A stretch of 64,000 nt of DNA from assembly GCF_013376095.1 (NCBI RefSeq), contig NZ_JAAMFN010000013.1, forward strand, positions 1-64,000, written 5' to 3'. How positions within the stretch are numbered: position 1 is the stretch's first letter; the number at the start of each line of letters is the position of its first letter. This stretch comes from Arthrobacter sp. SDTb3-6 (GTDB lineage: Bacteria; Actinomycetota; Actinomycetes; Actinomycetales; Micrococcaceae). Position numbers and translations under genes: made by a program. Of this stretch, positions 98 through 25,884 are shown in pieces. Under the pieces are notes generated by a model. That model ran no database searches. It worked only from the letters and a program-made list of their open reading frames with translations, and had not been told where the DNA came from.

Positions 98-1294
98 TCA
101 ACTGTGGGGCCAGCCGGTGTAGGCCTCGGCAAGGTACTGCTGTCCGTAGCGTGAGGACGCCACCCCGGCCAGTTCGCCCAGGATGCGTTTGCGCTCGAAG
201 CTGGTTTGGTCCTCCCGGGAGTGCAGCATGGTGGTCATCCAGAAGGAGAAGTTCTGTGCCTTCCAGACCCGCTCCAGGGCCGTGTCGCTGTAGCCGTCCA
301 GCAGTTCCGGCGAGCCGGTGGCATAGAACTGCCCGAGGGCCTCAAAGAGCACCCTGACGTCGGCCAGTGCCAGGTTCAGGCCCTTGGCCCCTGTGGGCGG
401 GACGGTGTGCCCGGCGTCGCCGGCGAGGAACATGTTGCCGTGGCGCAGGGGTTCGCAGACGTAGGAGCGGAAGGGCAGGACCATTTTTTCAAAGATCGGG
501 CCGCGCTTGAGCGTAAAGCCGTCCGGTCCGTCAACGCGCCTTTGCAGCTCCGCCCAAATCGCCTCGTCGCTCCACGCAGCGGCGTCCTCGCCCGGGTCGC
601 ACTGGAAGTACATGCGCTGAACGTGGTCGTTGCGCTGGCTGATCAGGGCAAAGCCGTGCTCGGAATTGGCATAGATCAGTTCCGGTGCACTCGGCGGCGC
701 TTCAACCAGGATGCCAAACCAGGCGAAGGGGTAGGCGATGAAGTGGTCACTGCGCTTTTCCGCCGGGATGGCGCGCTTGCACATCCCCTGGGAACCGTCG
801 GCACCCACGATGAAGTCTGCCTGCACCTCGAAACGCTGTCCGGCCGGGTCGGTGAAGCGCATCTTCGGAACGTCCGTCTCGAGGTCCAGGACTTCGGTGT
901 CCGTAACGGAAAACCGCACGTCACCGCCGTCGCGCTTGCGGGCGGCAGCCAAGTCAACGAACACCTCGTTCTGCGCGTACAGCCACACGGACTCCCCCAC
1001 CAGGTCCTGGAAGTCCAGGCGGTGGCTGGTCCCGTTGAAACGCAGGTCAATGCCGTCATGCCGGTGGCCCTCGGTCAGGACGCGGCCATCGACGCCGGAC
1101 TCGGTGAGCATCTTCACGGACCCGGCTTCCAGGATGCCGGCGCGGTGGGTGTGCCGAATGGTTTCGTGGTCGCGCTTTTCGATGACGATGCTCGCAATGC
1201 CGGCCCGTGAAAGCAGGTGGGACAGCATGAGCCCGGCCGGGCCGCCGCCGACAATGCCAACCTGCGTCTTGATGACCTGTGTGGCTGCTGGCAT
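98..1294 (-). CDS. pobA: 4-hydroxybenzoate 3-monooxygenase
   Basis: This is a cytoplasmic FAD enzyme that uses NAD(P)H and O2 to hydroxylate 4-hydroxybenzoate to protocatechuate. The 398-residue product is close to the usual 390-395. It has the N-terminal dinucleotide-binding loop GGGPAG (residues 16-21), the mid-protein DG motif (GADGSQG) and the second FAD motif GDAGHTVPPTGAKG near residue 290, in the order typical of group A flavoprotein hydroxylases. The ATG at 1294 is chosen because AAAGGAG sits just upstream and the Rossmann fold starts directly after it; upstream in-frame codons lack this. The IclR gene lies immediately upstream on the same strand. Position next to a cre-type cluster makes PobA the natural consumer of the 4-hydroxybenzoate that cluster would make. 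Family assignment is firm; the exact coenzyme preference cannot be read. Confidence 0.93.
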   Translation of the reverse strand: MPAATQVIKTQVGIVGGGPAGLMLSHLLSRAGIASIVIEKRDHETIRHTHRAGILEAGSVKMLTESGVDGRVLTEGHRHDGIDLRFNGTSHRLDFQDLVGESVWLYAQNEVFVDLAAARKRDGGDVRFSVTDTEVLDLETDVPKMRFTDPAGQRFEVQADFIVGADGSQGMCKRAIPAEKRSDHFIAYPFAWFGILVEAPPSAPELIYANSEHGFALISQRNDHVQRMYFQCDPGEDAAAWSDEAIWAELQRRVDGPDGFTLKRGPIFEKMVLPFRSYVCEPLRHGNMFLAGDAGHTVPPTGAKGLNLALADVRVLFEALGQFYATGSPELLDGYSDTALERVWKAQNFSFWMTTMLHSREDQTSFERKRILGELAGVASSRYGQQYLAEAYTGWPHS

Positions 1295-1365
1295 GGGATC
1301 TCCTTTGGGAAATGTGTTGCGGGTCTCCCACCACTGTGGCACCGGCAACACCCAAAGCCCTCAAG

Positions 1366-1380
1366 CATTCTCATTGAATG
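1366..1380. promoter_or_regulatory. Candidate IclR operator upstream of pobA
   Basis: A perfect 5-bp-arm inverted repeat, CATTC-TCATT-GAATG, lies in the 111-base gap between the IclR gene and pobA, 72-86 bases before the pobA start. Just upstream on the minus strand is a TATCAT that could be a -10 box. Size and location fit an IclR-family (PobR/PcaU-like) binding site; binding itself is inferred. Confidence 0.4.
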
Positions 1381-1405
1381 ATAAAAGTGCCCGCATCGCC
1401 ACTCC

Positions 1406-2161
1406 CTAGCCCCGCCGCTCCCCCACGGCCCGGGCTATGCCCCTGGCCCCGGTCATGAGGGCTGGCAGGAAGGAGTGGACGGAGACTGCCTGCCGGGCCA
1501 CCACCACGCCCAGCGCGGCAATGGCCGTGCGCCCGGGCCCGAGCACCGGCACGGCAATTCCCGTGGTGTCCTCATCCACCAGCCCCTCGAGGGCGGCGTA
1601 GCCCTGGGCCCGGATGCGGGCCAGGACCCGCCTGAAGTCGCCGGCCCCCGCGTCGCCGGGCACGGTGGCCGCCGGGTGGCGGAGCAGGTAGGCCTCCTGC
1701 ACGTGCGCGGGGGAAAAGGCGAGCAGCACAAGGCCGGAGGATGTGCGGTGCACCGGCAGGCGGCCTGCGACCCGGGCCTGGTTCACCACCGAATCGCGTC
1801 CGGACAGCCGCTCGATGAACAGCACCTCGTCATCCTGGAGGACCCCCAGCTGCGTATGCTGGCCAACCACCGCCTGGATGTCCTCCATGAACGGCATGGC
1901 GGCCTCGCGCAGGGTCAGTGCCGACGAACTCCTACTGGCCAGCTCCCACAGCCCGTACCCCAGGCGCACTGCGCCCGAGGAATCCCTGCGCAGGAAATCA
2001 TGGGCGGCCAGCTGGTCCACCAGACGGTAGGCGGTGGCCAGCGGCACGTCGGCACGGACCGCCAGGACGCCAACGCTCATGGAGGGGACGTCGGCGTCGA
2101 AAGCGCCCAATATCCGCACCAGCCGGTCCAGCGACGAGTCCCCCGACTTGGAATTTGCCAT
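1406..2161 (-). CDS. IclR-family regulator, probably of pobA
   Basis: The product is a 251-residue transcriptional regulator with an N-terminal winged helix-turn-helix (about residues 8-75, including SVGVLAVRADVPLATAYRLVDQL-like helices) and a C-terminal IclR effector-binding domain ending in GIAVPVLGPGRTAIAALGVVV. The length equals the family norm. The ATG at 2161 (MANSKSG) starts exactly at the DNA-binding domain; the frame stays open for 86 more codons upstream, but that part is Cys/Arg-rich, has no homology I recognise and is not used. The gene precedes pobA on the same strand with a 111-base gap that carries an inverted repeat, so control of pobA by 4-hydroxybenzoate or protocatechuate is the simplest reading. 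The effector is inferred. Confidence 0.88.
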   Translation of the reverse strand: MANSKSGDSSLDRLVRILGAFDADVPSMSVGVLAVRADVPLATAYRLVDQLAAHDFLRRDSSGAVRLGYGLWELASRSSSALTLREAAMPFMEDIQAVVGQHTQLGVLQDDEVLFIERLSGRDSVVNQARVAGRLPVHRTSSGLVLLAFSPAHVQEAYLLRHPAATVPGDAGAGDFRRVLARIRAQGYAALEGLVDEDTTGIAVPVLGPGRTAIAALGVVVARQAVSVHSFLPALMTGARGIARAVGERRG

Positions 2162-2479
2162 GGGGCAATGTTCCCATGTGCGGGCATACCGTGATTCGCG
2201 TGCAGTGGAAGGCCCGCATTGTCGCGGCAGCCACGGGCGGACCATGCTGGTTGCATGCCCACGATGCAGCCCTTGGCCAGCCAGTGTGGCCGCCCCGTAA
2301 CTGCGCACCTGCCGCCCGCTTCGCCAAGTGCCGCCACGATGACACCCGCACCGGCCCACCCCTGGACAGGGACAGCTCCCCTGCTTTGGGTTCGCGGCAA
2401 TGACGCCCACCCACTCCATGCCTCAGGCCTGGCCATGGCGCTGCCGGGGACATGCCGCTGCTGGGGATGTATCCGGAAG

Positions 2480-2788
2480 GCCGACGCCGGCTACACCCCC
2501 GCAACGGATGGACGCATCATTGGGATCATCGACGGCCACGATTCCCGCCCCACGGCCCTGACCATTGAGGACCGGATTGTCCAGGAGGCCGACAAGACCC
2601 GGCGGCTGGCCCCGGATGGCCTTGACACCGTCATGGACTGGTTTGGCCTTGACCGGGCACAGGCCCTGCAGCTGTGCTCGGAGCGCGCGCCCACCCACCG
2701 GTTTACCGAAGGGGCCCGGACCATTGAAGGGGCCCTGATCGCCTTGGAGTCGATCACGGTTTCGCCCCAGATGCGGCCCTGCCTTTAG
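2480..2788 (+). pseudogene. C-terminal relic of an HD phosphohydrolase (creD paralogue)
   Basis: The plus-strand frame contains GYTPATDGRIIGIIDGHDSR, then an EDRIVQEADKTRRL segment and a DWFGLD segment. These align with the C-terminal third of the intact HD protein at 10500-11258 (VCEIIDGHDTR, EDALVRDADRLWRF, SWFGMD). The relic keeps about 100 C-terminal residues, including the second metal-binding region, but has lost the N-terminal half with the HD pair. No start or ribosome-binding site fits. It sits between the two IclR genes, at the edge of the cre-type cluster, and looks like the remains of a duplicated or rearranged copy. The remaining 2162-2480 stretch shows no gene that I can support. 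Confidence 0.65.
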
Positions 2789-2795
2789 CCTGGCC

Positions 2796-2831
2796 GGTCC
2801 CCGACACTAGACTCGATCCAGATCGGGGACC
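2796..2831. terminator. Hairpin before the cre IclR gene
   Basis: GGTCCCCGA at 2796 pairs with TCGGGGACC at 2823-2831 across an 18-base loop, between the HD relic and the IclR start at 2862. It could be the relic's terminator or a leader hairpin; no T-run follows. Confidence 0.35.
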
Positions 2832-2861
2832 CCCAGTCCCCCCAGCTGGCAGGAGGCAGCC

Positions 2862-3656
2862 ATGGCCGGAGGCGGGCGCGACGCCGGGCGTTCGGTGACG
2901 TCGAAAGTCCTGGCCATCTTGGAGGTTTTCGAAAAATCCCGGGGGCCGTTGAGCCTGACCGAGATTTGCGGGCAGTCCGGTTTGCCGATGAGCACCGTCC
3001 ACAGGCTGATGGGCGAGCTGACCGATTGGGGGCTGCTGTCCCGTGGAGCCAACGGACGCTACCAGCTTGGCATCCGGTTGTGGGAACTGGCCCAAAACAC
3101 CGGCAGGCAGCTTCGGGAAGCCGCCAGGCCCCATGTCCAGGACCTTTTCTCGCTGACCGGCGAAACCGCACAGCTCGCCGTTCGGGAGGGCCACGAAGTC
3201 CTCTACATCGAGCGCATCTACGGCACCAAACGCGTTCCCCGCGCCTCCCGCGTGGGCGGACGCCTGCCCATGCATGCCACCGCCGTGGGGAAAGTCCTGC
3301 TTGCCTTCGGCGAGGACTGGGTACGCACCGCCTACCTCAACCGCGAGCTGGAACGGCCCACGGCCTTCACCCACGCGAACGCCGGGCTGCTGGCCGCCGA
3401 ACTCGACAGGGCGCGCGAGCAGGGCTATGCCACCACCGTGGACGAGATGCGCCTTGGCGCGTGTTCCATCGCCGTTCCCGTCCTTCACACCGGCAGGGTC
3501 GGCGCAGGACTCGGCCTGGTGCTGCCGTCGGCACAAGCTCCCGGCATGACGCGGCACCTGGCCGCTTTGAGGGGGGTTTCGGCCAAAATTGAGCGCGCGA
3601 CCGCACACATCCCGCTGGAAACGCTGCTGGGCGTCCATCTGAGCGGGCACGACTGA
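2862..3656 (+). CDS. IclR-family regulator of the cre-type cluster
   Basis: The 264-residue protein has an N-terminal winged helix-turn-helix (about residues 10-75, with SLTEICGQSGLPMSTVHRLMG) followed by an IclR effector domain (GRLPMHATAVGKVLLAF and, near the end, SIAVPVLHTGRVGAGLGLVL). The ATG is preceded by CAGGAGGCAG. It reads towards the P450-led operon that starts 143 bases downstream, and a 17-bp inverted repeat with the spacing of the other candidate IclR sites in this window lies in that gap. In C. glutamicum the cre cluster also has its own regulator (CreR), but I cannot tell whether this protein is its orthologue. Activation by the phenolic substrate or by a pathway intermediate is inferred. 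Confidence 0.87.
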   Translation: MAGGGRDAGRSVTSKVLAILEVFEKSRGPLSLTEICGQSGLPMSTVHRLMGELTDWGLLSRGANGRYQLGIRLWELAQNTGRQLREAARPHVQDLFSLTGETAQLAVREGHEVLYIERIYGTKRVPRASRVGGRLPMHATAVGKVLLAFGEDWVRTAYLNRELERPTAFTHANAGLLAAELDRAREQGYATTVDEMRLGACSIAVPVLHTGRVGAGLGLVLPSAQAPGMTRHLAALRGVSAKIERATAHIPLETLLGVHLSGHD

Positions 3657-3683
3657 CGGCGGCAGCGCCGGTACCATGATTGA

Positions 3684-3700
3684 CTTCCGCTCAGTGGAAG
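3684..3700. promoter_or_regulatory. Candidate IclR operator before the cre-type operon
   Basis: CTTCC-GCTCAGT-GGAAG is a perfect 5-bp-arm inverted repeat with a 7-base centre. It lies 99-115 bases before the P450 start and only 28 bases after the IclR stop codon. The arm sequence and spacing resemble the TTTCC-N7-GGAAA sites at 54622, 56504 and 59364. A TTGACT that could act as a -35 box overlaps its left arm (3681-3686). Confidence 0.45.
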
Positions 3701-3798
3701 AAAGGTATTTACACCGGGCTGTGATGGGGGCAACACTGGGGGAAGAAATCCGGTGGCGGCGCAAGCCGCACGGCCGGTGGTCAATCAAAGGAGTCCAG

Positions 3799-5076
3799 AT
3801 GTCCTCCCCCGCGGAAAACGCCCCCGGTTGCCCGTTCGGCCACGGCGCAGAGGCACCGGCCGGGCACCACGGCTACGAACCGTTCCAGATGAAGGACCCG
3901 TTCCCGGCCTACGCCGAAATGCGCGCCGAACAACCGCTCATGTTTGATGAGCGCATCAACTACTACGTCGCCACCCGCTATGACGACATCAAGGCCGTCT
4001 TCGACGACTGGGAGACTTTCTCCAGCGAAAACGCCCAGGCCCCTGTGCGGGAGCGCGGCGAGGCAGCCAAAAAGATCATGCTCGATGGTGGCTTCACGGC
4101 ATATTCCGGCCTTTCGGCCCGGGTCCCCCCGGAGCACACCCGGATGCGTGCCATCGTCCAGAAGGCCTTCACCCCGCGCCGTTACAAGGCCCTGGAACCG
4201 GCCATCCGCGAAAACGTGGTCACACGCCTGGAAACCATGCTCGCCCGGCCCGGCCGCGACGGGGACATGGTCCGGGACCTGGCCTACGACATTCCCACCA
4301 TCACCATCCTGACCCTGATCGGCGCCGACACCTCAAAGATCGACACCTACAAGCGCTGGTCGGATTCCCGCGCAGCCATGACCTGGGGAAACCTCAGCGA
4401 CGAGGAGCAGGTCCCACACGCCCACAACCTCGTGGAGTACTGGCAGGAATGCCTCCACCTGGTCGGTGCCGCCAAGGAATCCGGCGGCGACAACCTCACG
4501 GCGGACCTGGTCCAGGCGCAGGCCGAGGGAGCCGCGATCTCCGACCATGAGATCGCATCCGTGCTGTACAGCCTCCTGTTCGCCGGCCACGAGACCACCA
4601 CCACGCTGATCTCCAACTGCGTCCGCGTCCTCCTCGCGCACCCCGCACAGTGGGGCCAGGTCGTGGCCGACCCCAAGAAGATCCCGGCCGCCATAGACGA
4701 GATCCTGCGGTATTCCGGCTCCATTGTGGGCTGGCGGCGCAAGGCGCTCAGGGACACCACCGTCGGCGGCGTCGACATCCCCCAAGGCGCCGGCCTGCTC
4801 CTGCTGATGGGCTCGGCGAACAGGGACGAAGCACGGTTCGAGGACGGCGAGGCCTTCGACATCTCACGCCCCAACGCCCGCGAACACCTCTCCTTCGGCT
4901 TCGGCATCCACTACTGCCTGGGCAACATGCTCGCCAAGCTGCAGGCCAAGATCGCCCTGGAGGAGATCGTCCGCCTGGCCCCGACCCTGCAACTGGTGGC
5001 CCCGGAGTCCATCACCTTCCGCGAAAACCTTTCCTTCCGCGTTCCCGAAACCGTCCCCGTCACCTGGGAGTCCTAG
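3799..5076 (+). CDS. creJ: Cytochrome P450, CreJ-like (aryl-phosphate methyl oxidase)
   Basis: A soluble bacterial class I P450 of 425 residues. It shows the I-helix oxygen-activation motif AGHETTTTL, the K-helix pair and the haem-binding loop FGFGIHYCLGNMLAK with its cysteine ligand. The ATG at 3799 is preceded by AAAGGAG at 3787-3793; earlier in-frame starts lack a site. The 2Fe-2S ferredoxin and FAD reductase it needs lie downstream in the same operon, and the next two genes encode a PEP-synthase-like phosphotransferase pair. This combination is known from the C. glutamicum creHI/creJEF system, where the P450 oxidises the methyl group of 4-cresyl phosphate. The function is assigned from that context. 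The P450 family is certain, the phosphorylated substrate is inferred. Confidence 0.8.
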   Translation: MSSPAENAPGCPFGHGAEAPAGHHGYEPFQMKDPFPAYAEMRAEQPLMFDERINYYVATRYDDIKAVFDDWETFSSENAQAPVRERGEAAKKIMLDGGFTAYSGLSARVPPEHTRMRAIVQKAFTPRRYKALEPAIRENVVTRLETMLARPGRDGDMVRDLAYDIPTITILTLIGADTSKIDTYKRWSDSRAAMTWGNLSDEEQVPHAHNLVEYWQECLHLVGAAKESGGDNLTADLVQAQAEGAAISDHEIASVLYSLLFAGHETTTTLISNCVRVLLAHPAQWGQVVADPKKIPAAIDEILRYSGSIVGWRRKALRDTTVGGVDIPQGAGLLLLMGSANRDEARFEDGEAFDISRPNAREHLSFGFGIHYCLGNMLAKLQAKIALEEIVRLAPTLQLVAPESITFRENLSFRVPETVPVTWES

Positions 5077-5079
5077 GCC

Positions 5080-6150
5080 ATGAAAAGCAACAGCTACATC
5101 CAATTCTTCGACGGCGGCATTGAACCGACGCTGGACAACCTCGGCGGCAAGGGTGCATCCCTTGTCACCATGACGGAGGCCGGCATGCCGGTCCCGCCCG
5201 GATTTGTCGTCACCACGGCCGAGTTTGACGCTTTCATGACGGCTGCGGGGATCGCCGACAAGATCGCCGCAAGGTTGAAGGGGCTCGACCCGGAGGACGT
5301 CGCCGAGGTGGACCGCCTCTCCGAGGCAATTCGCACGGACATCTGCTCCCGCCCCATCCCCGAGGAGCTTCGCGAGCTGACCCGGAGTGCCTACGAGTCG
5401 CTGATGTCCCGCTTCGAGGCCCCCGTTCCGGTCGCCGTGCGGTCCTCTGCGACGGCCGAGGACCTGCCCGATGCCTCCTTTGCCGGCCAGCAGGACACCT
5501 ACCTGTGGCTGGAGGGATTCGACTCCGTGGGCGAACACATCCGCCGCTGCTGGGCGTCGCTGTACACCTCCCGCGCCATCATCTACCGGCTGAAGAACAA
5601 CATCCCCGACGCAGGCCTGTCCATGGCCGTCGTGGTGCAGAAGATGGTCAACAGCAAGGTGGCCGGCGTCGCCATGACCCTTGACCCGGCCACGGGCGAC
5701 CGCTCCAAGATCACGATTGATTCCTCCTACGGGGTGGGCGAAATGGTGGTCTCCGGGCAGGTCACCCCGGACAACATCCAGCTGGACAAGGTCACCTTGG
5801 CGCTCATCCACGAATCCCTCGGCACCAAGCATGCCGAACTGGTCCCCGACGCCGCCTCACACTGCCTCGTCGAACGCGAGGTGGACGAGTCCCGCCGGTC
5901 CGTCCGCAGCCTCACCGACACCGAGCTGGCAGCCGTGGCCCGGATGGCCAAGCGGGCCGAAAAGCACTACAAGTGCCCGCAGGACATTGAATGGGCCCTG
6001 GACGCCGACCTGCCCGACGGCGAAAACCTGCTGTTGCTCCAATCCCGCCCGGAGACCGTCCACTCCTCCAAGCCGGCCACCGCCCCTACGCCGATCGTGA
6101 CGGGTGGCTATGCCGCCACCTTCGGCTTCACCCCCAAGCTCCCTGCCTGA
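5080..6150 (+). CDS. ATP-binding subunit of a CreHI-type phenol phosphotransferase
   Basis: The 356-residue protein corresponds to only the N-terminal ATP-grasp domain of PEP synthase/pyruvate phosphate dikinase. It has GGKGASL near residue 24, PVPPGFVVTT, the AVRSSATAEDLPDASFAGQQ nucleotide-binding segment around residue 120-140 and QSRPET near the C terminus. It stops where the phosphohistidine domain of PEP synthase would start; that domain is on the next gene. Such split pairs are known as phenylphosphate synthase (Thauera) and as 4-methylphenyl phosphate synthase CreHI (C. glutamicum): this subunit would pass phosphate from ATP to the histidine of its partner. It starts 3 bases after the P450 stop, so the two are translationally linked. 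I do not assign CreH versus CreI because I am not certain which name belongs to which subunit. Confidence 0.82.
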   Translation: MKSNSYIQFFDGGIEPTLDNLGGKGASLVTMTEAGMPVPPGFVVTTAEFDAFMTAAGIADKIAARLKGLDPEDVAEVDRLSEAIRTDICSRPIPEELRELTRSAYESLMSRFEAPVPVAVRSSATAEDLPDASFAGQQDTYLWLEGFDSVGEHIRRCWASLYTSRAIIYRLKNNIPDAGLSMAVVVQKMVNSKVAGVAMTLDPATGDRSKITIDSSYGVGEMVVSGQVTPDNIQLDKVTLALIHESLGTKHAELVPDAASHCLVEREVDESRRSVRSLTDTELAAVARMAKRAEKHYKCPQDIEWALDADLPDGENLLLLQSRPETVHSSKPATAPTPIVTGGYAATFGFTPKLPA

Positions 6151-6195
6151 CGCGGCCCGTCCGCCCCGTTTACCGGCACTTCACCACATCAACCC

Positions 6196-6211
6196 GGCTC
6201 AGTGCTGAGCC
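6196..6211. repeat. 16-bp palindrome between the phosphotransferase subunits
   Basis: GGCTCAGTGCTGAGCC is a perfect inverted repeat (7-bp arms, 2-base centre) in the 79-base gap between the two phosphotransferase genes, the largest gap inside the operon up to 12763. It could be an mRNA-processing or stability hairpin that sets the ratio of the two subunits, or an internal operator. Confidence 0.4.
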
Positions 6212-6229
6212 ACCACGAAAGGGCATGAC

Positions 6230-8107
6230 ATGTCCATGAAATCCTTCCCGAAACCCTCGGAGCTGGCCGTCCCCGCCGGCGCCGAAGGCTGGGAAAAGCT
6301 GTACCCGTACTACCTGACCTTCCAGGAAAGCCTCAAGGATGAAGAGGACGCCAAGTTCTGGTTCTGCGATTCGCAGCACTGGCCCACCGTCTTCAAGCCC
6401 TTCGAGACCATTGGCGGGGAGTTCGCGGTCAAGTGCCTGGGCCAGTACAACGCCCGCCACCTGATGATCCCCAACGCCAACGGGATCGAGTTCCGCATCC
6501 ATCTGGGCTACCTGTACATGTCCCCCATCCCGGTGCCGGAGGAGCAGATCGCCGCGCGCGTGCCGCTGTTCGAGGAGCGGGTCGGCCACTATTTTGCCAA
6601 CTGGAACGAAAAGCTGGCCCAGTGGCACACAAAGGTCCGCGGCACCATCACCGAAATGGAATCCCTGGGCTTCGCCAAGCTGCCGGACCTGGTCCCCATG
6701 GCGGACATCCTCTCCGGCAAGGCCAAGGACGGCTCGGAGGTGCTGCTGGAAAACTACGACCGGCTGATCCAGCTGGCCTACCAAAACTGGCAGTACCACT
6801 TCGAATTCCTGAACCTGGGCTACATTGCCTACCTGGACTTCTTCAACTTTGCCAAGGCGGTCTTCCCCAACATCCCCGACCAGTCCATCGCCACCATGGT
6901 CCAGGGCGTGGACATGGAGCTGTTCCGCCCCGACGACGAATTGAAGGAGCTGGCCGCCCTCGCCGTCGAACTCGGCCTGCAGCCATCCTTCACCAACACG
7001 GACGACGCCGCCGCCACCCTGGCCGGGCTCGCTGCGGTTCCCGGCGGCGAACGCTGGCTGGCCCGTTACGAGGAAGCCAAGGACCCCTGGTTCAACTTCA
7101 CCGTCGGCAATGGCTTCTACGGGCACGACAAGTACTGGTACGAGTACCAGGAGATTCCGCTGGGCTACATTGCCGACTACATCCGCCGCCTCGACGACGG
7201 CCAGGAGATCATGCGGCCCAAGGAGGCGCTGATCGCCGAAAAGGAGCGGATCATCGAGGAGTACCGCGAACTGCTCGACGCCGACAACCAGGCAGTGTTT
7301 GACGCCAAGCGCGGCCTTGCCGCCACGGCCTACCCCTATGTGGAGAACCACAACTTCTACATTGAGCACTGGACCATGGGCGTGTTCTGGCGCAAGATCC
7401 GCGAACTCTCCCGCATGCTGCATGCCGAGGGTTTCTGGAACGGGCCCGACGACCTGCTCTACCTGAGCCGCAACGAGGTCCGCGATGCCCTCTTCGACCT
7501 CGTGACCGGCTGGGGCGTCGGCGCCAAGGCACCCATCGGCCCCATCTACTGGCCCGAGGAAATCGAACGCCGCCGCATCATTGTCGACGCACTGAAGACC
7601 GCCCGGCCACAGCCGGCGCTGAACACACCGCCGGAATCCATCACCGAACCGTTCACCCGCATGCTCTGGGGCATCACCACCGAACAGGTGGAGCAGTGGC
7701 TCGGCGCCGGCGAGGCCGTTGAGGGCGGCGGGCTGCGCGGCATGGCCGCCTCCCCCGGCATCGTCGAGGGCCGGGCCCGCGTCATCCACGGCTCCGACCA
7801 GCTCGCCGAGGTGCAGCAGGGCGAAATCCTGGTCGCGACCGTGACCGCACCCAGCTGGGGCCCCATCTTTGGCAAGATCAAGGCCACCGTGACGGACATT
7901 GGCGGGATGATGAGCCACGCAGCGATCGTCTGCCGCGAATACGGGCTCCCCGCCGTCACCGGCACCGGATCGGCCTCCACCACCATCACAACGGGACAGT
8001 GGCTGCGCGTCAACGGCACCAAGGGCACCGTCGAAATCCTCGACCACCCCCCGGTCTCGGGACCCGGCGCCCACAGCCACACACACGGGGAGCAGATCGA
8101 TGCCTGA
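6230..8107 (+). CDS. Phosphohistidine subunit of a CreHI-type phenol phosphotransferase
   Basis: The 625-residue protein ends in a PEP-utiliser mobile domain (about residues 505-605) with the swivelling phosphohistidine motif GGMMSHAAIVCREYG, His563 being the predicted phosphate carrier. The first 490 residues are rich in aromatic residues (for instance YPYYLTF, NWQYHFEF, YWYEYQ) and presumably form the phenol-binding catalytic part, matching the approximately 70-kDa subunit of phenylphosphate synthase. No PEP-binding TIM barrel of true PEP synthase is present, so this is not PpsA. With the preceding ATP-grasp subunit it would phosphorylate the hydroxyl of a phenol such as 4-cresol. The stop overlaps the start of the SDR gene by 8 bases. 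The extended C terminus is His-rich (HSHTHGEQ). Confidence 0.82.
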   Translation: MSMKSFPKPSELAVPAGAEGWEKLYPYYLTFQESLKDEEDAKFWFCDSQHWPTVFKPFETIGGEFAVKCLGQYNARHLMIPNANGIEFRIHLGYLYMSPIPVPEEQIAARVPLFEERVGHYFANWNEKLAQWHTKVRGTITEMESLGFAKLPDLVPMADILSGKAKDGSEVLLENYDRLIQLAYQNWQYHFEFLNLGYIAYLDFFNFAKAVFPNIPDQSIATMVQGVDMELFRPDDELKELAALAVELGLQPSFTNTDDAAATLAGLAAVPGGERWLARYEEAKDPWFNFTVGNGFYGHDKYWYEYQEIPLGYIADYIRRLDDGQEIMRPKEALIAEKERIIEEYRELLDADNQAVFDAKRGLAATAYPYVENHNFYIEHWTMGVFWRKIRELSRMLHAEGFWNGPDDLLYLSRNEVRDALFDLVTGWGVGAKAPIGPIYWPEEIERRRIIVDALKTARPQPALNTPPESITEPFTRMLWGITTEQVEQWLGAGEAVEGGGLRGMAASPGIVEGRARVIHGSDQLAEVQQGEILVATVTAPSWGPIFGKIKATVTDIGGMMSHAAIVCREYGLPAVTGTGSASTTITTGQWLRVNGTKGTVEILDHPPVSGPGAHSHTHGEQIDA

Positions 8108-8867
8108 TCCTACTGCTGCCGCCCCGGCCGCCCGGACCGTGCTCATCACGGGTGCCGCGGGCGGGCTGGGCCGGGCCTTCGCGTCCGGCTTCGGCGCCCG
8201 CGGCCACCGCGTGGTCGTGGCCGACGTGAACCTTGCCGGCGCCGAGGAAACGGCCGCACAGCTCAGGGCCGGCGGGGCCGAATCCCTGGCCCTGGAGACC
8301 GACGTCACGGACGCGGCGTCCACAGAGGCGCTCGCCGCCCGCGCCGCCGAATTCGGCGGCGGCCGCATCGACGTCGTCCTCAACAACGCAGCCATCTACG
8401 CCACCGTCACCAGGACGCCGTTCGAGGACATCGACCCGGCCGAGTGGGACCTTGTCATGAACGTCAACCTCAAGGGCCCCTGGCTGGTGACCCGGGCGGC
8501 GAGCCCCTACCTCCCCGACGGCGGACGCGTCATCAACCTCTCCTCCGCCACCGTTTTCTCCGGCTCGGAAAACTGGCTGCACTACGTGGCCTCCAAGGGC
8601 GGAGTGGTCGCCATGACCCGCGTCCTGGCCAAGGAGCTGGGGAGGCGCAACATCACCGTCAACACGATCGCCCCGGGCTTCACCCTCACCGAGGCCAGCT
8701 ACGGGCTCATGGACAACGCCGAAAACTACGGGGTTGACCGCGGGGCGCTAAAGCGGGCCAGCCAGCCCCAGGACATTGTGGGCGCGGCACTGTTCCTTGC
8801 CGGCCCGGACAGCTCGTACATCACCGGTCAAACCCTGGTCGTCGACGGCGGCCGGCAGTTCATCTAA
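8100..8867 (+). CDS. Short-chain dehydrogenase (4-hydroxybenzyl alcohol oxidation)
   Basis: A classical SDR of 255 residues with the NAD(P)-binding motif TGAAGGLG (near residues 18-25), NNAA (about 98-101), the catalytic Ser in NLSSAT and the YVASK pair (Tyr162, Lys166), ending VDGG. An acidic Asp at the end of beta strand 2 (VVVADVN) favours NAD over NADP. The ATG overlaps the end of the upstream gene by 8 bases. In the cre pathway an alcohol dehydrogenase oxidises 4-hydroxybenzyl alcohol to the aldehyde after phosphate removal, and this gene is the natural candidate. I leave the symbol empty because I am unsure which cre letter it carries. Confidence 0.82.
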   Translation: MPDPTAAAPAARTVLITGAAGGLGRAFASGFGARGHRVVVADVNLAGAEETAAQLRAGGAESLALETDVTDAASTEALAARAAEFGGGRIDVVLNNAAIYATVTRTPFEDIDPAEWDLVMNVNLKGPWLVTRAASPYLPDGGRVINLSSATVFSGSENWLHYVASKGGVVAMTRVLAKELGRRNITVNTIAPGFTLTEASYGLMDNAENYGVDRGALKRASQPQDIVGAALFLAGPDSSYITGQTLVVDGGRQFI

Positions 8868-8891
8868 CCCACACCACCTGAAGGAGGAGCC

Positions 8892-9212
8892 ATGCCAACG
8901 GTTCATTTCACCGACACGGCGGGAACGGTCCGCGACATCGAGGGCAACGTCGGCGATTCGGTCATGGAGACCGCCGTACGCAACGGCGTACCGGGCATCG
9001 TTGCCGAATGCGGCGGCTCGCTGTCCTGTGCCACCTGCCACGTCTTTGTCCGCGATGACGACTTCGCCGCCCTGCCGCCCATGGAGGACATGGAGGACGA
9101 AATGCTCTACGGAACAGCCGTGGACCGCGAGGACAACTCGCGCCTGTCCTGCCAGTTGCGCCTGCACGAAGGCCAGGAACTGCACGTGACGACCCCCGAA
9201 ACCCAGGTGTAG
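8892..9212 (+). CDS. [2Fe-2S] ferredoxin for the P450
   Basis: A 106-residue adrenodoxin/putidaredoxin-type ferredoxin. The cluster ligands are visible as Cys40-x5-Cys46-x2-Cys49 (ECGGSLSCATC) and Cys87 (LSCQLR), the spacing of class I P450 ferredoxins. AAGGAGGAG precedes the ATG. It would carry single electrons from the FAD reductase encoded 4 bases downstream to the P450 at 3799. In C. glutamicum the equivalent ferredoxin is, to my knowledge, CreF. Confidence 0.92.
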   Translation: MPTVHFTDTAGTVRDIEGNVGDSVMETAVRNGVPGIVAECGGSLSCATCHVFVRDDDFAALPPMEDMEDEMLYGTAVDREDNSRLSCQLRLHEGQELHVTTPETQV

Positions 9213-9216
9213 GACC

Positions 9217-10476
9217 ATGGCTGGGAAGGAAACCGACCTCCTGATTGTGGGCGCCAGCCAGTCCGGGGTGCAGCTGGCCATCTCCCTGCGCGCTTTGGGC
9301 TTCGAGGGGCACATCAAGCTGCTGGGCGACGAGGACCACCGCCCCTACCAGCGCCCGGCCCTGTCCAAGGAATTCCTGCAGGGCACGGTGGAAAGCGAGT
9401 CCCTGATCTTCCGTTCCAACGACTACTGGGACGAGCACAACGTCACCCTGGTCAAGGGAGCCCGGATCGTCAGGGTGGAAAAGGGCGCCGACGGCTCCGG
9501 GGTGGCCCATGCAGCCTCCGGGGAGTCGTTTGCATTCAAGCGCCTGGCGCTGACCGTTGGCGCGCGGGCGCGCCACATGGACGTGCCCGGCGGCGACCTG
9601 GCCGGGGTGGTCTACCTGCGCAATGCCGACGACGCGCTGAACCTCAAGCGCATTGCCCCGGAGGCCACGGACGTGGTGGTGGTCGGCGGCGGCTTCATCG
9701 GGCTCGAGGCAGCCTCCAGCATGCACAAAATGGGCAAGCGTGTGACCGTCCTGGAATACGGCCCACGGCTCGTGGGCCGGGCCGTGGGTACGGACACCTC
9801 CGAGTACTTCCTGGACGCCCATCGCGGGCGCGGGATCGACATCCGCCTCAACGCAAGGATCGCCCGGCTGGTGGATTCCGGGGAAGGCGCCGTCTCCGGC
9901 GTCGAACTGGAAGAAGGCACCGTGGTGCCGGCGCAGATTGTGCTGATCGGCATCGGGGTCATCCCCAACACCGAACTGGCCGAACAGATGGGCCTGGCCG
10001 TGGAAAACGGCGTCGTGGTCGATTCAAACGCGCTGGCCTCGGACGGCACCACAGTGGCCGTGGGGGACGTGGCCAACATGCCCAACCCGCTGCCCGGCGC
10101 CCCGGCAGGGGAACGCATCCGCCTGGAGAGCGTCAACAACGCCATCGAACATGCCAAGGTGGCCGCGTATTCCCTCATGGGGCGGCGGGAGGACTATGCG
10201 GGCATTCCGTGGTTCTGGTCCAACCAGGCCGATCTGAAACTGCAGATCGCGGGCCTGTCCCTGGGCTACGACTCCACCGTGGTCCGGCGGGACGACGAAC
10301 GCGGCAAGTTTTCCGTCCTCTATTACCGCGGGGGGCAGGTCATCGCCGTCGACTGCGTGAACACCCCCCTTGACTTCATGGCCGTGAAGAGCGCCCTGGC
10401 GAAGGGCCAGAACATACCGGCCGGCGCGGCTGCCGACCCGGCCGTTGCACTTAAGTCCATCACCACGGACGCCTGA
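9217..10476 (+). CDS. Ferredoxin reductase (FAD, NADH-dependent)
   Basis: The 419-residue protein belongs to the putidaredoxin-reductase family. It has an N-terminal FAD motif (LLIVGASQSGVQLA; the usual GxGxxG is here GASQSG), the mid NAD motif VVVVGGGFIGLEAA around residue 150-165, and the FAD-contact segment AVGDVAN near residue 285. Its length fits the family (400-420). It begins 4 bases after the ferredoxin stop and would pass electrons from NADH to it. In C. glutamicum the equivalent partner is, to my knowledge, CreE. The non-standard first glycine motif is common in this family and does not suggest inactivity. Confidence 0.9.
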   Translation: MAGKETDLLIVGASQSGVQLAISLRALGFEGHIKLLGDEDHRPYQRPALSKEFLQGTVESESLIFRSNDYWDEHNVTLVKGARIVRVEKGADGSGVAHAASGESFAFKRLALTVGARARHMDVPGGDLAGVVYLRNADDALNLKRIAPEATDVVVVGGGFIGLEAASSMHKMGKRVTVLEYGPRLVGRAVGTDTSEYFLDAHRGRGIDIRLNARIARLVDSGEGAVSGVELEEGTVVPAQIVLIGIGVIPNTELAEQMGLAVENGVVVDSNALASDGTTVAVGDVANMPNPLPGAPAGERIRLESVNNAIEHAKVAAYSLMGRREDYAGIPWFWSNQADLKLQIAGLSLGYDSTVVRRDDERGKFSVLYYRGGQVIAVDCVNTPLDFMAVKSALAKGQNIPAGAAADPAVALKSITTDA

Positions 10477-10499
10477 ACCTGATTCCCCCAAGGAGCACC

Positions 10500-11258
10500 A
10501 TGAACAACCACAACAGCACCGCCGCGGGCAGCCAGGCCCCGGCGTGGAGCCCGCCGGAACCCGGTCTTGACGCCCGGGACCCCCGCGCGCTGGCGTTCGC
10601 CGCGGCGCACCCGGTCCGGCCCATCCCGGCCACCGGACCGGTGGACACCACACCCATAGCGGGCACCCCCGCCCCCGGCCTCGAGGCCTTGTGGGGTGCC
10701 GTCGTGCCGGAAACGCGGACCCGCGGCAACGACATCCACCTGCCCATCTCGCTCGCCTTCGCCGCCCGGCTGTGCGACGCCCACCCGGAGGCGGACCGCG
10801 AACTGGTGCTCGTGGCGGTGCTCTTGCACGACACCGGCTGGGCGCACGTGGACGAATCCCGCATCATCTCCGAGGGGTTTTCCGGGGACTGGCGCACGGC
10901 CGCCATCCGGTACGAGCACGAAGCCGAGGGCTGCAAGGTGGCCCGGCGGGTGCTGCCGCCGCTGGAATACTCCGGGCCGTTCATCGACCGGGTCTGCGAG
11001 ATCATCGACGGCCATGACACCCGGCACGTCGCCTACTCCCTCGAGGATGCACTGGTCCGCGACGCCGACAGGCTGTGGCGGTTCGACCAGGCCGGCATCG
11101 CGCTGGCGTCGTCCTGGTTCGGCATGGACCCGGCCACCTACACCGACCGCCTGGCCGGTGAAATCATCCCCGAACTCATCACGCAGGCGGCTGTTGAGAT
11201 GGGCACCACCGACCTCTCCCGATCCACGGCCCTGCTCCAGACGAAAGTGATCCGATGA
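10500..11258 (+). CDS. creD: HD-domain phosphohydrolase, CreD-like
   Basis: The 252-residue protein carries a metal-dependent HD phosphohydrolase domain from about residue 75. Visible are an early histidine (NDIHLPISLAF), the HD pair in LLHDTGWAH, a further metal-ligand region RYEHEAEG, then IDGHDTR and the final aspartate in VRDADRLWRF. The first 60 residues are Pro/Ala-rich. In the cre pathway CreD removes phosphate from 4-hydroxybenzyl phosphate (or more oxidised forms) made by the P450, and this gene occupies the same context. AAGGAGCACC precedes the ATG, and the stop overlaps the ALDH start (ATGA). A decayed C-terminal paralogue lies at 2480-2788. Confidence 0.8.
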   Translation: MNNHNSTAAGSQAPAWSPPEPGLDARDPRALAFAAAHPVRPIPATGPVDTTPIAGTPAPGLEALWGAVVPETRTRGNDIHLPISLAFAARLCDAHPEADRELVLVAVLLHDTGWAHVDESRIISEGFSGDWRTAAIRYEHEAEGCKVARRVLPPLEYSGPFIDRVCEIIDGHDTRHVAYSLEDALVRDADRLWRFDQAGIALASSWFGMDPATYTDRLAGEIIPELITQAAVEMGTTDLSRSTALLQTKVIR

Positions 11259-12763
11259 CCTCACCCGCGCTCGCCGCCAGGGCCGCCCTCACCCTTCCGT
11301 ACACCCATGTCGAGTCCATGTTCATCGACGGGAACTGGGTGGCGGCGGACGGGGCCGGCCGCAACCAGGTCACGGACCCCGCCACGGGCCAGGTCTGGGG
11401 TTCCGTGCCGGACGGCTCCGACACAGACGTGGACAACGCGGCCGGAGCCGCGCGCCGGGCCTTCGACACCGGGCCGTGGCCACGCCTGGCCCCCGAGGAG
11501 CGGGCAAAATACCTGCTGCGCATCGCGGACGAGGTGGAACGCCGGGCCGACGCGCTGGCCCTGACCAACACCCGGGAGAACGGCTCTCCCATCGCCGAAT
11601 CTCGCGGCGCCGCGGCCAATGCGGCCGGGATCTTCCGCTACTTCGCAACCCTGGCCGGCTACCTCGGACGCGAGGACGTCCGCCCGTTCCCGTCCGGCGT
11701 CGGCGAGTCCGTGGTCCGGCGCGACCCCGTGGGCGTGTGCGCCCTGATTGCCCCGTGGAACTTCCCGATCAACCTCATGGTCATCAAGCTGGCGCCCGCC
11801 CTGCTGGCCGGCTGCACCGTAGTGATGAAGCCGGCCTCCCCCACCCCGCTGTCGCTGCGCCTGATCGTCGACTCCGTCGCCGCGGCGGGCGTGCCGGCCG
11901 GCGTGGTCAACATGGTGACCGGGTCGGGGCGCCTGGGCGATGCCATGGTCAGGCACCCCCTGGTGGACAAGGTTGCCTTCACGGGCTCTACACCGGTCGG
12001 GCGAAAGATCGCCTCGGCCGCCGGCGCCCTGCTCCGCCCGGTGACACTGGAACTGGGCGGCAAGTCCAGTGCGATCGTGCTGCCGGACGCCGACCTCGAT
12101 GCCATGGGCGGCGTGCTGGTGCGCTCCTGCATGCGCAACACCGGACAGACCTGCTACATCTCCACCCGCATCCTCGCACCGGCCTCCCGCTACGGCGAGG
12201 TGGTGGACATGGCCACCACCACGATCGCCGCCGGGCGCCAGGGCGACCCGCTGGATCCGGCAACGGTGTTCGGCCCTGCGGCCACGCCCGCGCAGTTCAA
12301 GACCGTCATGGAGTACGTCGCGTCAGGGCATGCCGAGGGCGCGCGGGCCACGACGGGCGGCCGGGCGGCCGTTTTGGGCGGCGGACTGGAGAACGGCTGC
12401 TTTGTGGAACCCACCGTCTTTGCCGACGTCGAGCCTGCCATGAAAATTTCCCGGGAGGAAATCTTCGGCCCGGTGCTGTCCATCCTGAAGTACGACGGCA
12501 TCGAGGAGGCCATTGCGCTGGCCAACAACACCGGGTTTGGCCTGGGCGGGCTCGTCTTCGGTGCCGACCCCACGGCGGCGCTGGCCGTGGCGGACCGCAT
12601 TGACTCCGGCTCCGTTGGCATCAATTTCTTTGCCTCCAACCACTCGGCACCCTTCGGCGGGCGCCACGACTCGGGGCTCGGCACGGAGTATGGCATTGAG
12701 GGGCTGAACGCCTACCTTTCCTACAAATCCATCCACCGGCGCGCATCGGCCCGTGGCGTGTAG
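11255..12763 (+). CDS. Aldehyde dehydrogenase (4-hydroxybenzaldehyde type)
   Basis: A 502-residue NAD(P)-dependent ALDH with the coenzyme-binding segment APWNFPINL, FTGSTPVG, the general-base glutamate in LELGGKS and the catalytic nucleophile Cys300 in NTGQTCYIST; EEIFGPVLS is near the end. It is translationally coupled to the HD gene (4-base overlap) and closes the operon that starts at 3799. Its expected role is oxidation of 4-hydroxybenzaldehyde to 4-hydroxybenzoate, the PobA substrate. The substrate is inferred from context; the enzyme class is certain. Confidence 0.9.
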   Translation: MTSPALAARAALTLPYTHVESMFIDGNWVAADGAGRNQVTDPATGQVWGSVPDGSDTDVDNAAGAARRAFDTGPWPRLAPEERAKYLLRIADEVERRADALALTNTRENGSPIAESRGAAANAAGIFRYFATLAGYLGREDVRPFPSGVGESVVRRDPVGVCALIAPWNFPINLMVIKLAPALLAGCTVVMKPASPTPLSLRLIVDSVAAAGVPAGVVNMVTGSGRLGDAMVRHPLVDKVAFTGSTPVGRKIASAAGALLRPVTLELGGKSSAIVLPDADLDAMGGVLVRSCMRNTGQTCYISTRILAPASRYGEVVDMATTTIAAGRQGDPLDPATVFGPAATPAQFKTVMEYVASGHAEGARATTGGRAAVLGGGLENGCFVEPTVFADVEPAMKISREEIFGPVLSILKYDGIEEAIALANNTGFGLGGLVFGADPTAALAVADRIDSGSVGINFFASNHSAPFGGRHDSGLGTEYGIEGLNAYLSYKSIHRRASARGV

Positions 12764-12919
12764 GCAGGAACCCGCCGAGCGGAGTCTTGCGCCCGGCGGC
12801 AACAGGGTCCTTACTTGTTGCAGGACCGAAATCAACCTGTGGCGCCGCAGACCGGCGGCATCCTGTTTCAGGTCCCCGACAAGGCAGGTCCCCAACAACA
12901 CCCCGTACGGGAGGAACCA

Positions 12920-13204
12920 ATGTTCGCTCGAGTCAGCAGCTACCACCCCGGCCCCGGGAGCACCGGCGAGCCGTCAGCCGACACCGTCAACCAGTTCCTG
13001 GACATGCCGGGCTGCAAGGGCTTCTACTACCTTGTGGGCAAGGATGGCACGTCCCTGTCCATAACGCTGTGGGAAGACGAAAATGCGATGGCCGTCAGCC
13101 AACAGGATTCGGAGCGGATCCGCTCGGTGACCAGCGCACAGCAGCACATGGAAATTCTCGGCGTGGATGGCTATGAAGTCCTGACGAGCCGGCTCAGGGA
13201 CTGA
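12920..13204 (+). CDS. Small ABM/dimeric alpha-beta-barrel protein
   Basis: A 94-residue protein (MFARVSSYHPG... to SRLRD) preceded by GGGAGGAACC. The pattern of an N-terminal beta strand, a CKGFYYLVGKDG strand pair, SITLWEDENAM and a C-terminal YEVLTSRL strand is that of the antibiotic-biosynthesis-monooxygenase/dimeric alpha-beta-barrel fold. Such proteins act as small oxygenases, isomerases or accessory stress proteins; no catalytic residues can be assigned. It is 156 bases downstream of the ALDH, so it may have its own promoter. Function unknown. Confidence 0.7.
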   Translation: MFARVSSYHPGPGSTGEPSADTVNQFLDMPGCKGFYYLVGKDGTSLSITLWEDENAMAVSQQDSERIRSVTSAQQHMEILGVDGYEVLTSRLRD

Positions 13205-13253
13205 CCCGGCCGCCCCATGGCTTCCGCTGCACCGGTGCCCGTAGGATGGCAGC

Positions 13254-14342
13254 GTGAATGCGGGTTACGGGAAGTTCTCGACCCGGCTGTCCGAGGCGGT
13301 TTCGACCCTCGCCCCCGGGTACTTTGCACTGGTCATGGCCAGCGGCATCATCTCCGTCGGGCTCGAACTGGAGGGCTTCGGCACGCTGTCCGCCGTCCTG
13401 CTGGGGCTGTGCCTGACCGCGTACGTGGTGCTCCTTGTCCTGAACGTGGTGCGCCTGGGCGCCTTCCGGGGGGCCATCCGCGCTGACTTTCTGCACCCGG
13501 GCCGTGCGTTCGGCTTCTTCACCTTCGTTGCCGGCACCAACGTCCTTGGCGTGCGGCTGGACCTGGCCGGCGCCCAAGTGGCGACGGCGGTGCTGCTGGC
13601 CGTTTCCGGGCTTGCCTGGGTCGGGCTCGGCTACGTGATCCCGTGGATTGCCGTGCTCGGCCGGGAGGAGAGGCCGATCTTCAAGGAGGCCAACGGGACC
13701 TGGTTCATCTGGTGTGTCGCGAGCCAGTCGGTGGCGGCGGCGTCGGCCACACTCGAGCCACTGGGCGGCCAGTGGGAGGCGGGACTGGCGCTGCTGGCGG
13801 TCGTCGCATGGTCAGTGGGCCTCATCCTTTATGCGGCGGTGGGGATCTTCGTTTCCCTCCGTCTCATGGTGTACCCCGTGCGTGCCCGGGACCTCGGCCC
13901 ACCGTACTTCGTGTCGATGGGGGCACTGGCCATCGGCGTCGTCGCGGGGGCCCGGATCGTTGAGATGACCGACGCCCCGGTGGCCGTGGCGGTCCACGAA
14001 CTCGTCGCGGGCATGGCGGTTGTGCTCTGGGCCTTCGCGTCCTGGCTGCTGCCGGTCCTCATCGCGGCGGGCTGCTGGCGGCACTTCGTCAAACGGGTGC
14101 CCCTCGTGTACGAGGCCGGAATGTGGAGCGTCATCTTCCCCCTGGGGATGTACGCCGTGTCCGGGATTTTTCTGGGACAGGCGGACAGGCTGCCCATTGT
14201 CCTGGCCATCGGACGGGCGGAACTGTGGTTCGCCACCGCGGCCTTCCTCGCCACGTTCTCCGGCATGGCCCACCACCTCTGGCGCACGCTCGTGGCCCCG
14301 CACCGTGGTCCGGCAGCGTCGGCCAGCCTGGGCGAAGGGTGA
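13254..14342 (+). CDS. TehA/SLAC1-like (TDT family) membrane transporter
   Basis: An integral membrane protein of 362 residues starting at a GTG behind AGGATGG. About ten hydrophobic segments are visible, the first being GYFALVMASGIISVGLEL, which matches the signature start of tellurite-resistance/C4-dicarboxylate transporters (TehA, Mae1, SLAC1). The family forms anion channels or carriers for malate, sulfite and similar anions. No regulator is attached and the gene faces the flavoprotein operon tail to tail. The substrate is not deducible; export or import of an organic acid would fit the region. Confidence 0.75.
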   Translation: MNAGYGKFSTRLSEAVSTLAPGYFALVMASGIISVGLELEGFGTLSAVLLGLCLTAYVVLLVLNVVRLGAFRGAIRADFLHPGRAFGFFTFVAGTNVLGVRLDLAGAQVATAVLLAVSGLAWVGLGYVIPWIAVLGREERPIFKEANGTWFIWCVASQSVAAASATLEPLGGQWEAGLALLAVVAWSVGLILYAAVGIFVSLRLMVYPVRARDLGPPYFVSMGALAIGVVAGARIVEMTDAPVAVAVHELVAGMAVVLWAFASWLLPVLIAAGCWRHFVKRVPLVYEAGMWSVIFPLGMYAVSGIFLGQADRLPIVLAIGRAELWFATAAFLATFSGMAHHLWRTLVAPHRGPAASASLGEG

Positions 14343-20695: not shown

Positions 20696-21394
20696 GTGAG
20701 TGAAAACGCAGCAGTTCCAGCTTCCCGGACGGCCGGTTCCCAGACGCTGGCCCGTGGCATCACGGTCCTGAAGGCCGTCGCGTCAGCAAGGGAAGGGATG
20801 ACCATCCAGGACGTGGCCGACCAGATCGGCGTCCACCGGACCATCGCCTACCGCATCCTGAACACGCTCAGCGACGCACAGCTCATCCACAAGGGCAGCG
20901 ACAGCCGGTACCGCGGGGCCTCGGGCCTCCTGCAGCTCTCCAGCGCCGGCCACTCGGCCATGCGTGAGGCCGCCATGCCCGTCCTGGCCGAGCTTGCCAA
21001 CGAGCTTGGCCAAACGGTTTCACTCATCGTCCAGGAGGGACCCGACGCCGTCGCGCTGGCTGTGGTTGAGCCGCGCAACCGCACCTACCGGATTTCCTTC
21101 GCCGAAGGCAGCCGCCACCCCTTGAACCTCGGTGCGGCCGGCCATGCCATCAGCTCCTGCCTCCCGCCGTCTCCGCTCGACCCGGAAGGGGTCCGGCTGG
21201 CGCGGGCCAACGGATATTCGCTCACCTACGGGGAGGTGGAGCCCAACATGTATGGATTGGCCGCACCGCTGCGCGGAGTTGCCTGGGAAAGCCCGGCCTG
21301 CGTCAACCTCATCACCACCCGCAAGGAACTGGCGGAATCGGCCACCGGCGCCGTCATGGCCGCAGCCGCACGTATTTCCAGCCGCATGGCCTAG
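20696..21394 (+). CDS. IclR-family regulator of the mhp and transporter operons
   Basis: A 232-residue regulator with the N-terminal winged helix-turn-helix (about residues 15-75, TIQDVADQIGVHRTIAYRILNTL) and an IclR effector domain that is somewhat shorter than usual: the KVLLA-type helix is reduced to NLGAAGHAISSCLPP. The start is a GTG at 20696. It is encoded between the divergent transporter operon and the mhp operon and 131 bases before mhpC. Identical motifs before those two operons make it the obvious regulator of both, probably responding to a hydroxyphenylpropionate-type inducer (MhpR of E. coli is also IclR-type). Confidence 0.85.
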   Translation: MSENAAVPASRTAGSQTLARGITVLKAVASAREGMTIQDVADQIGVHRTIAYRILNTLSDAQLIHKGSDSRYRGASGLLQLSSAGHSAMREAAMPVLAELANELGQTVSLIVQEGPDAVALAVVEPRNRTYRISFAEGSRHPLNLGAAGHAISSCLPPSPLDPEGVRLARANGYSLTYGEVEPNMYGLAAPLRGVAWESPACVNLITTRKELAESATGAVMAAAARISSRMA

Positions 21395-21427
21395 CCCTTC
21401 CGGCCGGCGCCTTGCGCGCCGCCGTCC

Positions 21428-21460
21428 CTTGACATGGATCACTCCCACATGGTGTGATAC
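21428..21460 (+). promoter_or_regulatory. Candidate promoter of the mhp operon
   Basis: A consensus -35 box TTGACA at about 21430 is followed after 18 bases by TGTGAT (overlapping GATACT) as a -10 region. This is in the gap between the IclR stop and the mhpC start, upstream of the shared operator copy at 21494, so a repressor there would sit just downstream of the start site. Confidence 0.4.
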
Positions 21461-21493
21461 TAATCATCGCCGTGCACTTAGTGTTTATTCACG

Positions 21494-21509: not shown

Positions 21510-21524
21510 TCCAAGGGAGTCTTC

Positions 21525-22394: not shown

Positions 22395-22433
22395 GCGCCA
22401 CCGGAAGGACCACCCGCGGTGGAAGGAAAACCA

Positions 22434-25874: not shown

Positions 25875-25884
25875 GGACACCACC

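Follow-up and report, generated by a model that had tools for sequence, protein, structure and literature searches.

Which aromatic compound is served by the gene block at positions 2862-12763 of a contig of Arthrobacter sp. SDTb3-6, and by what chemistry? We have analyzed the 64,000-nucleotide stretch of DNA that carries this block (NZ_JAAMFN010000013.1, positions 1 to 64,000; hereafter the window). An initial annotation had read the block as a compact operon of the cre type, that is, as the 4-cresol pathway of Corynebacterium glutamicum, in which the phenol is phosphorylated before its methyl group is oxidized. This cresol (cre) pathway is said to have been established by Du et al. in 2016 and Li et al. 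in 2014, whose work we know from papers that cite it (PMC12167813, PMC9618137 and PMC7764795). Judged by its sequence, the operon is the orthologue of the published C. glutamicum 4-cresol operon and has its published gene order, and its identification as a cre-type, phosphorylate-first system is strongly supported. We consider it highly probable that it serves the aerobic catabolism of 4-cresol, and probably also of other alkylphenols.

Gene content, orthology and distribution of the operon

Nine co-directional open reading frames (ORFs) on the + strand, all of them open, occupy the block. A Pfam scan of the ten ORFs in 2862-13204 gave for these nine, in order, IclR, cytochrome P450, PPDK_N, PEP-utilizers, short-chain dehydrogenase/reductase (SDR), Fer2, pyridine nucleotide-disulphide reductase, HD and aldehyde dehydrogenase (ALDH) domains, so that every gene named in the initial annotation is present with the expected domain. 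Its description of several overlaps of 1-8 bases holds only in part: overlaps exist, but in two gene pairs, of 8 bases between the 625-amino-acid kinase subunit and the SDR and of 4 bases between the HD and ALDH genes. The remaining gaps from the P450 through the ALDH are 3-79 bases long, and the P450 start follows the IclR stop after 143 bases. This start was placed at ATG 3799, which is preceded by AAAGGAG and gives a protein of 425 amino acids; the ORF from ATG 3676 is too long. A motif check found the heme cysteine, I-helix and ExxR motifs of the P450 intact. The ferredoxin has CX5CX2C and one further cysteine, the SDR has TGxxxGxG and YxxxK, the ALDH has GQTC and ELGGK, the HD protein has its ligand motifs, and the swivel histidine motif of the 625-amino-acid subunit reads TDIGGMMSH.

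The reference for orthology was a locus (L128, in genome G359) which we take to be from C. glutamicum. Its CreJ matches the 5xjn chain of the PDB at 100% identity across 400 residues. The window P450 scores 718 bits against 5xjn/7ccf and 5gwe, whose chain is presumably CreJ. The comparison with C. glutamicum CreC-CreJ proposed in the initial annotation gave matches for all eight proteins, at 68-77% identity (Table 1), including 77% between the 625-amino-acid subunit and CreH; a lack of homology of this subunit to CreH, CreI or phenylphosphate synthase was to have spoken against the proposal. The eight catabolic genes are all colinear with the reference, in the order creJ-I-H-G-F-E-D-C, and comprise the two-component aryl-phosphate synthase CreHI, the class I P450 system CreJ-CreF-CreE, and CreD, CreG and CreC within the operon. 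The gene order had been said to differ from that of C. glutamicum. However, the part of PMC7764795 available to us tabulates cg0637 as creC, cg0638 as creD, cg0639 as creE, cg0640 as creF, cg0641 as creG, cg0642 as creH, cg0644 as creI and cg0645 as creJ; this matches the order in the window once the opposite strand is read, and the claimed difference is therefore unsupported. The two operons do differ in gene spacing, and upstream of its operon the window has pobA and the decayed remains of a second HD gene.

The wider distribution was assessed by scanning genome_contigs with the 625-amino-acid protein, which yielded 454 stretches encoding a relative; the best 80 of the 454 (73-87% identity; L064 and L079 lie on the same chromosome) are the loci compared below. 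With each of the eight genes counted at 50% identity or more, the complete order was found in 72 of the 80 loci, and contig ends cut five of the other eight; such conservation of gene content and order is far beyond chance. Three loci deviate. In L046 and L104 the P450 and ATP-grasp genes were unmatched at their usual place in cre operons, and in L111 (7669-14889, Microbacterium lacus) the ferredoxin and reductase were unmatched; the P450 there would need other redox partners. The P450 match of L048 and the reductase match of L086 are each split in two, possibly through frame errors or decay. Of 295 genomes from the window's family, 50 encode a relative of the 625-amino-acid protein at E 1e-60, 49 of them one with at least 67% identity; eight carry a relative of a second class, at 44-46% identity, and one (G001) has that class only.

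Table 1. Features of the cre region and its upstream neighbours in the window (identities are to L128)
Feature	Position	Strand	Basis
pobA-like 4-hydroxybenzoate 3-monooxygenase	98..1294 (start chosen)	-	NF006091 530 bits, cut-off 351
Second IclR-family regulator, adjoining pobA	1406..2161 (start chosen)	-	Matches IclR genes beside pobA in some relatives
Decayed creD2 remnant, without LHD and HE (metal-binding) motifs	2252..2788 (start approximate)	+	Relatives' proteins match ~2252-2785
creR-like IclR-family regulator	2862..3656	+	IclR_C and HTH_IclR domains
Predicted CreR operator TTCCGCTCAGTGGAA	3685..3699	.	TTCC-N7-GGAA palindrome, 15 bp
creJ, cytochrome P450	3799..5076	+	77% identity; ribosome-binding site before 3799
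creI, ATP-grasp component of aryl-phosphate synthase	5080..6150	+	PPDK_N 362 bits; 69% identity
creH, swivel-His and phenol-binding component of aryl-phosphate synthase	6230..8107	+	NF006150 1259 bits, cut-off 650; 77% identity
creG, SDR (putative alcohol dehydrogenase step)	8100..8867	+	adh_short_C2; 76% identity
creF, [2Fe-2S] ferredoxin	8892..9212	+	Fer2; 75% identity
creE, ferredoxin reductase	9217..10476	+	Pyr_redox_2 and Reductase_C; 69% identity
creD, HD-domain phosphohydrolase	10500..11258	+	HD 43.9 bits; 68% identity; five ligand motifs kept
creC, aldehyde dehydrogenase	11255..12763	+	Aldedh 504 bits; 70% identity

Kinase class and the proposed route

Phenylphosphate synthase (PpsAB) acts alongside a carboxylase and is not known to involve a P450 set. 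Carboxylase genes, of the hpeCBA type or for phenylphosphate carboxylase, were not found by Pfam among the ten ORFs scanned. The kinase pair must be weighed against its relatives, as the hydroxyphenylethanone (Hpe) pathway and phenylphosphate synthase employ the same two-component dikinase family, with HpeH, CreH and PpsA aligning pairwise at about 45% according to the portion of PMC12167813 available to us. HpeHI of Rhodococcus rhodochrous GD02 likewise has ATP-grasp and swivel-histidine parts. It differs in that HpeH has Cys580-His581, whereas CreH and the PpsAB of Thauera aromatica, which initiates anaerobic phenol catabolism, have Ser before the histidine (PMC12167813, same portion). In the published Hpe cluster, moreover, biotin-dependent carboxylase genes adjoin the kinase, and the kinases for hydroxyphenylethanones, for phenol and for alkylphenols are given as distinct clades (PMC9618137, also available in part).

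In a tree built from 38 selected rows of the 625-amino-acid protein (the window and 37 loci), 31 rows, which include the window, L128 and further copies borne by operons, part with support of 100/100 from seven of 44-46% identity; the tree program flagged one row, L145, as a long branch. The seven are called Hpe-like here by residue and subunit order only, the tree holding no authentic HpeH or PpsA sequence. The residue before the swivel histidine is Ser in all 31 Cre-clade rows, the window included, and Cys in all seven Hpe-like rows. The latter also have the reverse order of kinase subunits relative to cre, and their loci gave no match to the P450, ferredoxin, reductase or ALDH of the cre set; an SDR-type match was found in two (L140, L142), and a CreD-like HD gene lies ~6.6 kb from the kinase pair in L143. 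An Hpe-type identity was thus rejected on clade, residue and gene context. The serine is shared by CreH and PpsAB in the source cited above and so does not separate these two; phenylphosphate synthase was rejected on the 77% identity to CreH and on gene context, namely a P450 set that uses oxygen. Taken together, either assignment appears most improbable. A single-chain relative, rifampin phosphotransferase, has ATP-grasp, substrate and swivel domains and matches both window subunits, but its substrate is an antibiotic and both matches fall far under the family cut-off.

From this orthology we infer the following route. CreI would transfer a phosphate from ATP to CreH, at its swivel histidine, and CreH would phosphorylate the phenol hydroxyl. 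On the resulting aryl phosphate, the P450 CreJ would oxidize the methyl group with electrons delivered via the ferredoxin CreF and the reductase CreE. CreD would remove the phosphate, and CreG and CreC would complete the oxidation from alcohol through aldehyde to acid, giving 4-hydroxybenzoate for PobA. A PDB search with CreD gave no match at E 0.001.

CreR, its predicted operator and a second phosphohydrolase gene

The initial annotation had regarded the IclR gene as extra, a view that the other loci contradict. In 72 loci the sequence includes the P450 and 1000 bases or more ahead of it; an IclR gene with 50% identity or more stands no farther than 1000 bases upstream of creJ in 62 of them, which makes it the usual neighbour. 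The window IclR is 57% identical to the one beside an operon with a 96% CreJ in a Corynebacterium genome (L129). It may be called CreR, and it would control the operon through a palindrome revealed by the alignment of the intergenic regions before creJ (3685-3699 in the window). In stretches of 250-300 bases before creJ, TTCC-N7-GGAA is present in 55 of 72 loci, while six control patterns with other spacing or letters occur in 0, 0, 0, 0, 4 and 0. Four Sinomonas loci (L041, L045, L056, L059) keep the motif with no adjacent creR matched, and in the Sinomonas genome G104 a creR-like gene (71%) sits together with a second HD gene over 50 kb away from the cre operon. Retention of the motif with creJ where the regulator lies elsewhere is what one would expect of an operator whose regulator acts in trans.

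Some counts run the other way. The motif was not found before creJ in 17 of the 72 loci, though the alignment shows a near copy in two of these (L057, L062); in the whole genome the strict motif occurs once, as does a reversed control pattern; and in the window a relaxed motif gives 10 matches against 7.4 expected. Since matches within the window are at chance level, the case for an operator rests on conservation between species, and on that footing the palindrome is likely the CreR operator. Also at chance level by count are imperfect TTCC-N7-GGAA palindromes at 56505-56519 and 59365-59379, which are possibly sites of other IclR-type regulators. A scan of 1300-13400 for sigma-70 promoters found 0, compared with 1.1 expected, and the part of PMC7764795 available to us describes the inducer of the cre operon as unknown.

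Three Corynebacterium loci (L071, L073, L129) have a GTGA-N6-TCAC stretch between palindrome and creJ. This resembles the consensus of a CRP/GlxR site; the wider test failed its control, GTG-N8-CAC occurring in 43 of 72 loci and the N10 control in 42 of 72, and no such site is claimed.

A second HD-phosphohydrolase ORF, for which we have coined the convenience name creD2, is found in at least 41 of the 80 loci, a lower bound as some others end before its place. These ORFs show 35-42% identity to CreD or 32-40% to the window remnant, whichever is better. Most lie just upstream of creR; in L092 and L093 creD2 is between creR and creJ, in L068 and L075 downstream of creC, and in L081 on the other strand. 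Nearly all keep the metal-ligand motifs (NDxH in 40 of the 41, LHD in 41, HE in 41, DGHD in 38 and [DE][AS]D in 41). The region before creD2 was compared in 36 loci, L068, L075 and L081 being left out and L034 and L063 being too short. TTCC-N7-GGAA is present in 19 of the 36, and its distance to the assumed start is 48-109 bases in 18 cases; control patterns occur in 0, 2, 0 and 0. The form TTCC-R-N5-Y-GGAA has 100 sites in the 80 loci, 56 before creJ, 21 before creD2 and 23 elsewhere, six of the last lying 63-108 bases before a pobA-like gene.

The window retains a remnant of creD2, shorter than the homologues of the 41 loci, between the pobA-side IclR gene and creR, and a search of its genome matched this remnant and CreD only. 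A possible decayed operator at 2196-2210, before the remnant, is one of the chance-level matches and suggestive at most. Only the CreD copy was matched in G509, G255 and the C. glutamicum-like genome G359, part of which reads N so that absence there is not fully shown; a search of C. gallinarum with CreD gave one match. In all, creD2 was not found in three Corynebacterium genomes, the partly masked one included. In Sinomonas G104 the creD2-creR pair (L149 7579-9108; L138) is separated by ~7 kb from a kinase pair of the Hpe-like kind and by ~2 kb from a 71% homologue of the protein at 13254-14342 of the window, which reads as TDT exporter-like.

The remnant, together with the operon's rarity in the genus (two of 23 genomes), raises the question of whether the operon itself is degenerate or silent in this strain. 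Given that its nine ORFs are open, that the checked motifs are kept and that a palindrome and a ribosome-binding site precede creJ, this seems very unlikely. The likeliest reading of CreD2 is a paralogue that would dephosphorylate another phosphorylated intermediate or substrate and be dispensable for cresol use in some lineages. In a broader model, which we regard as evenly balanced, CreR would govern a cre regulon throughout Actinomycetota with two units or more, namely creJIHGFEDC and creD2-creR, each controlled through a palindrome resembling TTCCRYYNRRYGGAA. CreD2 would then serve a different phosphorylated intermediate (for example in the release of dead-end aryl phosphates or in a wider alkylphenol range), pobA would join the regulon in some lineages, and the window lineage would be losing creD2. 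We saw no description of a CreR operator or a second HD gene in the literature that we searched, which did not include the two core cre papers.

Substrate range, use of the product and neighbouring genes

The adjoining pobA had been expected to use the product of the operon. This is plausible: the pobA-like protein passes its NF006091 cut-off, while its score to TIGR02360 (422 bits) is under the cut-off of 538.7, and pobA-like genes occur within 17 of the 80 loci, on both sides and strands, a recurrence that supports 4-hydroxybenzoate as the end product. The next step is less secure, as the best genome match to the protocatechuate 3,4-dioxygenase beta subunit (TIGR02422) reaches 55 bits, below the cut-off of 296; the subunit is over the cut-off in 3 of the 23 same-genus genomes. 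From reading alone, the two weaker matches resemble hydroxyquinol and catechol 1,2-dioxygenases. A search for LigA gave no match in any control genome, and a single LigB gene was matched in the genome, at ~24 kb in the window. Another route for p-cresol, by a hydroxylase and meta-cleavage, is proposed for Rhodococcus opacus 1CP in the part of PMC13101518 available to us.

Could the main natural substrate be a different para-alkylphenol, such as a dimethyl phenol or one derived from lignin, 4-cresol being only one of several compounds handled by the same phosphorylate-first chemistry? HpeHI turns over cresol at about a quarter of the rate for 4-hydroxyacetophenone and related kinases accept several phenols (PMC12167813), Cre enzymes have been used as an alkylphenol oxidation system (PMC9549646; both seen in part), and the protocatechuate ring-cleavage route was not found in this genome. 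Against this stand a gene content identical to that of the operon described for 4-cresol, the 68-77% identity to it, and the pobA-like genes near cre, which fit a 4-hydroxybenzoate product. We therefore regard a different main substrate as unlikely, if well ahead of the other alternatives considered here. The reading as a 4-cresol operon has to contend, besides the motif counts given above, with the shortfall of the dioxygenase match, with the presence of the operon in only two of 23 same-genus genomes (the window's own and G255, at 88%), and with step assignments for CreC, CreD and CreG that rest in part on the PMC7764795 table as available to us.

The IclR protein at 1406-2161 gave no NCBIfam match at 1e-30. 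Two FAD dehydrogenases of ketosteroid-dehydrogenase type lie at 14419-17912 (-), with 4-oxocyclohexanecarboxylate dehydrogenase models among their better matches, all below cut-off; as a guess, they could supply pobA with 4-hydroxybenzoate from cyclohexanecarboxylate. An Mhp-like aromatic cluster at 20696-27828 (+) consists of an IclR gene, an alpha/beta hydrolase, a 3-hydroxyphenylpropionate-type hydroxylase, a LigB dioxygenase and an acetaldehyde dehydrogenase; its LigB gene is the single one matched in the genome.

Many actinobacteria carry, as a conserved operon, the phosphorylate-first route for cresol that was described in C. glutamicum, and the genes of the window offer ready orthologues of an alkylphenol-oxidizing P450 system. 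The predicted operator and creD2 make two matters testable, namely the mode of induction of the operon and the reason for which many lineages maintain a pair of HD-phosphohydrolase genes next to a single pathway.

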